A program made the translations under genes and the position numbers. From Labia minor (taxonomy: Eukaryota > Arthropoda > Insecta > Dermaptera > Spongiphoridae): a stretch of 64,000 bases of DNA. How positions within the stretch are numbered: position 1 is the first letter of the stretch; every line of letters starts with the position of its first letter. Under the pieces are notes generated by a model. That model made no database searches. It was not told where the DNA came from and worked only from the letters and a program-made list of their open reading frames with translations. Positions 6,933-58,344 of the stretch are shown here, one piece after another. The stretch is from positions 58,696,528-58,760,527 of the forward strand of contig OY720345.1 of the NCBI GenBank assembly GCA_963082975.1. The letters are read 5' to 3'.

Positions 6933-7845
6933 TCTTATTATATATATAAAAGCCATAATGTGTGTGTGTATGTATGTATCACTCATTTTCACCTAACCAC
7001 ATAAGTTGTCCCCAAAGACACACTAGGTGGCGTCTCTGTTCTTTCAGTGGGTCTTTCAAAATAAACAAAATTATTCTATAAATGGTAATTTGATTTTTAT
7101 GTGTTTTTAAAAAATGATAATTGAATACTAGATTTCGTATTGAATATATATACCTATATTTTATTATTTTAATCCAATTTCTTCTTAGCGTTTGAATTTG
7201 TTGATAAATTAGTTCCTATTAATATATTTATCGATAATTTTTATTTTTCATGTATTAATATAAACTATTATATTATTATATTATATAAGTTTTATTTGTT
7301 TTATAAAATAAATAATATATAACTATCATTATTAAAATAAAACATTTAATTAAATTAAATTATTTGATTTTTATTTAAATATTTAAATTATTATTTAAAT
7401 TATATATTCATATATATACACTGGCAACAGCCCAAAGATTAGCGTAACCAACAAATATCAATATTAAACATGAACTTATCGACAAAAGAGATCGTTTTTT
7501 TAATTTTTTAATATCCACGACTAGACCAACATCAAAACAAAAATTAATTTATCGTTTAATTAAATAGTTCTTTGAAAACAATATTTTTCGTATACTTAAT
7601 GATCATTTTTAAACATGAACTTATCGACAAAAGAGATCGTTTTTTTAATTTTTTAATATCCACGACTAGACCAACATCAAAACAAAAATTTTTAAAAAAT
7701 TAAAAAAACGATCTCTTTTGTCGATAAGTTCATGTTTAAAAATGATCATTAAGTATACGAAAAATATTGTTTTCAAAGAACTATTTAATTAAACGATAAA
7801 TTCATTTTAAATTGAAATTGCAAACACTGTTTGCAACGGATTCAA
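6933..7845 (+). mobile_element. Helitron-D copy 1, non-autonomous, with internal palindrome
   Basis: The left part has a Helitron-like 5' start (a TATATATATAAAAG block followed by GTGTGTGTATGTATG). The right end has a hairpin GCAAAC-ACT-GTTTGC followed by GGATTCAACTAC. In the second copy (62.1-62.5 kb) the same place reads GGGTTCAACTAG before a T, which fits the CTRR|T rule of Helitron 3' ends. No Rep/helicase coding region is present. The middle is rearranged into a long inverted repeat (separate entry). The exact 5' base is uncertain. Confidence 0.6.
7541..7806. repeat. About 265-bp palindrome inside Helitron-D
   Basis: The left arm (about 7541-7670) and right arm (about 7688-7806) are near-perfect inverse complements. 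In addition, a block of about 80 bp at 7468-7545 is directly repeated at 7611-7690. The copy at 62.27-62.46 kb has each module once, so the extra modules here are derived, not ancestral. Template switching during replication is a likely cause. Confidence 0.85.
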
Positions 7846-33057: not shown

Positions 33058-33494
33058 CGAGGGTGGACTGAAAAGTTTCCGACCTGACCAAGAAAAACTA
33101 TGTTTTTCAATTTTTTTTTTTGCTATATTTTTCAACATAATCTCCATCAACACTGATACATTTCTCATAACGGTGTTCTAATTAAATTTGATTCAATTTA
33201 ATTTAAGTCTCATCAACAGTTATGAATCGACGCAAAAATTCGTTTGGATTACGCCTACAGCGCCACATTGTCGTTAGAAATGGTTTTTCGAAGCAATTTT
33301 TGGTCTAACGCTAGGAAATGCGGCACCCACGTTGCACACAGCTTTCCATATTCAAATGATTTTGCAAAATATTTCGCACACGTTCAGCTGACATCGTACA
33401 GGTCTCAATTATCTTGAATTTTGAAAAATAAAACAAAAAAAAAATTGAAAAACACCGTTCTTGGTCAGGTCGGAAACTTTTCAGACCACTCTCG
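33058..33494 (-). mobile_element. Mariner deletion derivative with long inverted repeats
   Basis: TA duplications flank it (33056-57 and 33495-96). The ends, CGAGGGTGGACTGAAAAG and the inverted CGAGAGTGGTCTGAAAAG, agree at all but two of the first 37 bp, and similarity continues inward for about 75 bp. On the minus strand the interior encodes a transposase N-terminal half: SAERVRNILQNHLNMESC, then RRNPNEFLRRFITVDET. It stops at the first catalytic aspartate region; the rest of the catalytic domain is deleted. Non-autonomous. Confidence 0.9.
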
Positions 33495-57222: not shown

Positions 57223-57225
57223 ATA

Positions 57226-58338
57226 TGGACCGTTTATTTTGAAAGTGGTGTAAGTCCATATTCTCTTGTTTCGAGAAAATTAGATGTTAGCATATCTGTC
57301 AATTAAAAAATTCAGGCAGGTTGTATGAAGTCTGGCAATGTCTCTATTGTTTTACAAATATTTAATTTCATTATATAGATATGTTTAAGGGGAATTAGAC
57401 TACAATAATACATATTTATGGGCTGTAAATGGACTTACACCACTTTCAAAATTAGGCAACTGTAAAAATCGTTTAATTTCAATTTAAAAAAATCAAAAAG
57501 CACTTAAAATATATTTCATTGTAATCCAATTTTTTACAAATACTCGTTACAAGACATAAAATTTAATTTTAGACACTAATTACATTGTAAAAATTAAATG
57601 ATACTGATAGTATTTACTTATGCTCTGCATGTGGCAGTGTTTCGAAATATGCATGATGCACCGGAGGTATATAGGGTAGTAACTGCTTCATGTCTTTATA
57701 TTTTTCGTAAGTAATAGGCCTGGCATTTTCGTACAAGGGCGCCAGGGCGATTTTTTCAAACTTTAGCGGTCTTCCAGGACGTGTAGGTAATAAATTTATA
57801 GTTTTAAATTATGCTTCCTTCATTGATGTTTTATAAAAAATAGTATATGGTGCACTTTTGAGAAATTTCAACCAATATATTTGCAACCAGTTGACTTGTT
57901 CGCCATTAGTGTTTTCCTTTACCTGTTTTTTAATCGCATTTTGAAGATTTTTTATTGAAACAATATCCTCTCGTCTCATTTCATGTAAAATGAATTTGTT
58001 ATGTTTTCTACATTGTTTTATCTCATCATAATAATCCTGTGGTGTGTATAGAAAATTATTATATAAAATTATATGCCATTTTTATAATGCCAAAATCTGC
58101 ATCATTCGGAAGATATGAATGCCCAGAAAGTAAAACCTACCTTTGTCAATTGGACGTATACCACTTTCATAATCGATAAGTATGCAATTTCATTTACCGA
58201 CCGATTTTAAGTTGTAAAAAACATGGGAATTTTTTAAGAAATTAAACCCGAACTAGTTATACATAAAAATTTACATCAAATTAAGCATGAAATTTTTTTA
58301 AAAAATGGACTTACACCACTTTCAAAATAAACGGTCCA
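57226..58338 (-). mobile_element. Compact DNA transposon with perfect terminal repeats
   Basis: The ends are 36-bp perfect inverted repeats (57224-57259 and 58305-58340, counting the shared TA), starting TGGACCGTTTATTTTGAAAG. TA on each side is compatible with a TA target, as in Tc1/mariner-like elements, but the repeat sequence matches no family I recall. Two more copies of the inner repeat lie inside (about 57430-57458 and 58150-58172). A short intron-containing frame occupies the minus strand (next entry). Perfect ends suggest a young insertion. Confidence 0.85.
57614..58170 (-). pseudogene. Intron-containing small gene of the 57-58 kb transposon
   Basis: Exon 1 is 58141-58170: ATG and nine more codons, MKVVYVQLTK, ending ACAAAG|GTAGGT. 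The intron is 58037-58140 (104 bp), ending in CACCACAG. Exon 2 continues in phase: DYYDEIKQCRKHNKFILHEM, RREDIVSIKNLQNAIKKQ, then WLQIYWLKFLKS. A TAA at 57809-57811 interrupts after about 85 codons; the same frame then continues with LLPTRPGRPLKFEKIALAPL, and YIPPVHHAYFETLPHAEHK before the final TAA at 57614-57616. It is basic and coiled-coil-like in the middle, with no DDE motif visible. Product unknown; it could be a remnant of a larger transposase or a separate accessory protein. Confidence 0.6.
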
Positions 58339-58344
58339 TATAAT

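Follow-up and report, generated by a model that had tools for sequence, protein, structure and literature searches.

A 1,111-bp transposon of Labia minor is very probably an internally deleted element with a decaying remnant of a DUF7869-related transposase

Sola2 transposons make 4-bp AT-rich target duplications, given as ATAT, AAAT, ATTT and AWWT in PMC3627910, where short derivatives lacking most of the transposase are also described. Other groups follow other rules: according to PMC4482050, ISL2EU elements have ends that usually start with GG and an AT-rich target, and Spy elements make no duplication; IS3EU elements have TA..TA termini and a 6-bp duplication (PMC10045372). MITEs and other internally deleted derivatives keep their ends and lose their gene. 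The window analyzed here, a stretch of 64,000 nucleotides of the dermapteran Labia minor (contig OY720345.1), contains an element of this last kind, with ends kept, gene lost and copies of 276-1157 bp; nothing fundamental separates it from MITEs, and the window element retains a coding tail. We are confident that it is an internally deleted, non-autonomous cut-and-paste transposon from a parent whose DDE-type transposase was related to Pfam DUF7869, and that the tail is a decaying C-terminal remnant of that enzyme.

The stretch from 57227 to 58337 is a real DNA transposon, bearing perfect 33-bp inverted ends. The perfect inverted match at its edges extends over 37 bp (57223-57259 and 58305-58341) because the flanking ATAT is its own reverse complement; the outer 4 bp are the target duplication, and we obtained the 33-bp ends by subtracting ATAT (57223-57226 and 58338-58341) from the match. 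The longest inverted repeat in 30 shuffled windows (at least 16 bp, within 3 kb) was 21 bp. An earlier note on this DNA, made from its letters alone, had described a compact transposon with perfect ends at this place, and both descriptions hold. Family A ends run GGACCG..GTGGTGTAAGTCC, and the element combines ends and duplication with several copies and no intact transposase, as expected of a non-autonomous DNA transposon. Its features are:

57223-57226, no strand: target duplication ATAT, left copy, 4 bp
57227-58337, no strand: non-autonomous DNA transposon of family A, 1111 bp, ends GGACCGTTTATTTTGAAAGTGGTGTAAGTCCAT
57227-57259, forward strand: left terminal inverted repeat, 33 bp
57429-57452, reverse strand: exact 24-bp internal copy of the end's inner part
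57614-58036, reverse strand: transposase C-terminal tail, containing one premature stop in addition to the natural terminal one
57809-57811, reverse strand: premature TAA, absent from six of six other aligned copies
58069-58072, reverse strand: 4-bp insertion, approximately placed, disrupting the frame from block to tail and absent from six of six other aligned copies
58077-58136, reverse strand: transposase block VLLSGHSYLPNDADFGIIKM, within the supposed intron; its K codon at 58080-58082 is E in six of six other aligned copies
58148-58173, reverse strand: second internal copy of the end's inner part, imperfect (85%), containing the start codon proposed in the earlier note
58305-58337, reverse strand: 33-bp terminal inverted repeat on the right, mirroring the left one perfectly
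58338-58341, no strand: target duplication ATAT, right copy, 4 bp

The exact internal copy at 57429-57452 is, from its sequence, a possible additional transposase site.

The element had been credited with its own gene, a two-exon frame of about 150 codons interrupted by a 104-bp intron. The proposed exon 2 (57614-58036) is broken by the in-frame TAA, which none of the six other aligned family copies shares. The proposed intron (58037-58140) does have GT and AG edges, but when read in another frame it is a conserved transposase block: the same stretch in all six other copies reads PNDADFGIIEMAL and leads in an open frame to DYYDE, with which “exon 2” begins (L026 among them lacks SGHSY owing to a small deletion), and the core-bearing relative L042 is unbroken across the point of the supposed intron (..FLIPGHSFLPNDRDFAVVEMALKKNNLLYVPQDYY). 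Only the window copy has the 4-bp insertion in the stretch between block and tail, along with K instead of E. We reject the intron because in six of six other aligned copies and in L042 an open frame runs from the block into the tail, a continuity that we judge decisive. The “two-exon gene” is the frameshifted, stop-broken 3′ end of a transposase. The length of open frames is weak coding evidence by itself, as the longest open run (90 codons) is matched by 156 of 1000 shuffles, and the longest run with one stop (155 codons) by 9 of 1000. The remark that no DDE motif is visible agrees with our reading of this copy, whose core is deleted and whose putative third catalytic E, present in the six others, is K.

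Copies were sought in the host assembly (604 Mb, 71 contigs), whose other repeats give the impression of an insect. A search with the whole element gave at least 110 match rows from the 40 candidates scored out of 197. Identity to the window element is 94.8, 93.3, 92.9, 89.0 and 94.1% for the five long copies L003-L007, in that order, the last value covering 959 aligned bases only. A 31-bp stretch of the end, with up to three mismatches allowed, occurs at 107 sites in the 604-Mb genome (57 forward, 50 reverse), and its reversed control pattern at none; the earlier note would have given up its reading had the genome held no second copy, and many are present. The ends are indeed identical, as was said, but they argue only weakly for the recent movement read from them: identity to the nearest of the five long copies compared is 94.8%, a level at which two unbroken arms of 33-37 bp would be unsurprising. 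Among the 100 end sites listed of the 107, 16 facing pairs lie less than 20 kb apart, all with spans of 276-1157 bp, so these 100 sites include no long two-ended element. At six further places with good ends, tblastn (E 0.01) matched neither core nor tail in any; L080 and L082 are short copies, L084 is a 764-bp copy, and L081 and L083 show a single end within the 4651 bases taken. Because a full-length family A partner with the same ends was not found among the sites examined, we infer the parent of family A. A 1157-bp element at L079:89-1245 (G000:C9:41160738-41161894) has the same ends and ATAT flanks around a different interior, without a match to the tested transposase pieces or, apart from the ends, to the window element.

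The target duplication was counted over 27 distinct two-ended copies, taking at each locus the two outermost ends that had no more than five mismatches apiece; L001, L052, L054, L056, L057, duplicates of one place and internal motif copies (recognized by their constant neighbors) were left out, and L078-L084 stand outside the count. The 4-bp flanks are identical in 19 copies, match at three of four bases in five, and at one of four in three, so that 3 of the 27 lack a duplication. One of the 19 identical pairs is AATT and the other 18 are ATAT, a palindromic sequence that a target preference could also produce on its own. In L058, AATT stands on each side, which excludes a 2-bp duplication there, and the L031 flanks AAAT/AAGT are a non-palindromic near match. 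Ten two-ended copies measure 344-388 bp, which leaves no room for the tail, and contain no internal motif copy at up to four mismatches, and six of them have an exact duplication; neither tail nor internal motif therefore seems essential for movement.

Longer relatives in the genome carry a catalytic core upstream of the tail. Scoring 150 of 420 candidates gave the tail at least 150 match rows, and the core piece of L045 returned 32 (44 of 44 scored) at 24 places, four of which also carry a tail row, judged by eye among the tail rows listed. A distant relative from this genome, L078, is similar to the L045 core (E 5.9e-8) and scores 39 bits against Pfam DUF7869 (PF25273), whose cut-off is 26; the matches of three other core pieces, L042, L056 and L057, fall below the cut-off, the L045 core piece has no match to the model, and a genome search with DUF7869 returned L078 as its sole match (2 of 2 candidates scored). 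By sequence comparison, the family appears tied to DUF7869 above cut-off through the single locus L078. Sola transposases probably look like the core of these relatives. Judged by eye, L045, L056 and L057 have a putative catalytic D within an FDLQK-like motif, at a position that is N in L078 and falls in a part that L042 does not cover; another putative D lies in an SDxC/CDNC (SDxCxGQN-like) motif in all five of L042, L045, L056, L057 and L078; and a putative E lies in a GHS..IE block in L042, L056, L057 and L078, the frame of L045 being broken there. On re-check this catalytic reading was weakened by the N in L078 and the gaps in L042 and L045; the odds of the main claim are unchanged, since that claim draws its support from intron, ends and copies.

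Two loci have a structure of their own: L078:1462-4759 is a distant DUF7869 element in which 13-bp inverted repeats (AAGGGCCAATCTG) flank a broken transposase frame, and L052:3142-4200 has a reverse transcriptase-like start (RVT_1, 17.3 bits, cut-off 29.6) running into the N-terminal part of the transposase, in a chimeric frame or a nested insertion.

With the tail as query, sequence searches of Pfam and PDB returned no credible match; the top PDB row (E 1) and the single PHROG row (E 0.081) are RNA polymerases and were taken as chance matches. Scans of viral and prokaryote contigs found no relatives apart from L001, a phage protein with only KQLLPYIPP in common, also taken as chance, and phage records gave no match. 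No solved structure was found with the core profile, and an AlphaFold model of the tail (single sequence, premature stop set to Q) was poor, with a mean pLDDT of 44.2. In the full text of open-licence PMC papers, no paper was found under DUF7869 names, and a text search with the end sequence and tail peptides found none; three papers matching core peptides concerned plant antimicrobial peptides and were, by listing, irrelevant.

The deletion junction lies just before LLSGHS in family A and, in copies intact there, just before DFGVVE in family B; in L011, a piece ending NVNMYV is joined to one starting KFILHEIK in a different frame, with stops. These distinct junctions indicate that at least three different deletions made the short versions. 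No DUF7869 core is present in the family A copies found, and a fragment occurs only in the related L011. Pooled dN/dS within family A is 1.10 (7 loci, 21 pairs). Between three family A loci and five family B or core-bearing loci, it is 0.11-0.23 in 14 of 15 pairs and undefined in one, values that are rough, with synonymous differences of 0.61-0.74 near saturation. This contrast suggests that the tail is a real protein domain, apparently free of constraint in family A. Within family B, pooled dN/dS is 0.65 over 66 pairs of 12 loci, selected from a larger number, or 0.54 for 13 loci with L042 and L045, which argues against a pure passenger in that family.

The ends, the duplication, the copy number, the deletion junction, the homology of the tail and the lack of any sign of selection within family A are observations, and we would explain them as follows. 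A parent element would have encoded a DDE-type transposase related to DUF7869. A deletion, perhaps through faulty gap repair, would have taken the gene up to just before the putative third catalytic block, leaving both ends and the C-terminal tail. The shortened element may then have been mobilized in trans by a DUF7869-type transposase made elsewhere, which would recognize the common ends, possibly by binding the GAAAGTGGTGTAAGTCC motif, and insert at ATAT, or at times at AATT or a similar site, duplicating 4 bp. In family A the tail would be a drifting passenger.

This reading has to be weighed against others. We give almost no credence to a small transposon carrying an intact gene of its own, in two exons and of unknown function: the GT and AG edges and a start codon (58168-58170) exist, but so does the premature stop in frame, the “intron” codes continuously with the tail in the other copies and L042, and dN/dS shows no constraint within family A. 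That the tail is kept in short elements for its usefulness, perhaps as a repressor that binds DNA or as a helper protein, has more in its favor, since tail rows far outnumber core rows, the tail survived different deletions in A and B, and both pooled values for B are below one; we nevertheless think it very unlikely, given the family A ratio, the many copies with broken frames, the failure to find an in-frame ATG before the block in the family A copies printed, and the 344-388-bp copies, all ten too short for a tail and six exactly duplicated. The values below one in family B may themselves derive from source elements.

Superfamilies with a 2-bp or 6-bp duplication (Tc1/mariner, ISL2EU, IS3EU) are barely conceivable as a home for the element. 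The ATAT flanks of the window copy would on their own also permit AT or TA, and ends starting GG in an AT-rich target recall ISL2EU; however, the duplication here is 4 bp and not AT, the AATT flanks of L058 exclude in that copy both the 2-bp AT of ISL2EU and the 2-bp TA of Tc1/mariner, no 6-bp duplication of the IS3EU type lies beside the window copy, and the core-bearing pieces scanned have no YqaJ, THAP, rve or mariner Pfam match. Spy was ruled out by its lack of a duplication. Our best guess is Sola2, at roughly even chances, and it is drawn from the duplication rule and not from sequence: the 4-bp AT-rich duplication, exact in 19 of 27 copies, fits the rule given in PMC3627910, where the amoebozoan families have ends of 12-21 bp in contrast to the 33 bp found here. 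A distinct non-Sola2 group, defined by a DUF7869-type enzyme, 33-bp GG ends and ATAT, whose C-terminal domain is repeatedly kept through independent deletions because it is still useful, seems to us distinctly unlikely.

The window holds other inverted repeats. A perfect 111-bp pair (7546-7656 and 7692-7802, 35-bp spacer) is longer than the ends of the element, and a further arm at 7464-7511 is a 48-bp partial repeat of one of its arms. A short element at 33060-33494 has 27-bp perfect inverted repeats (33068-33094 and 33458-33484) and a frame inside it without a Pfam match; it looks like a deleted mariner copy.

We conclude that the deleted transposon is real, explained and ordinary in kind, and that a false gene and a false intron are removed from the annotation. 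Its mild interest lies in the repeated retention of the tail and in the function it suggests for a Pfam domain of unknown function, DUF7869 being likely the core of a DDE-type transposase.
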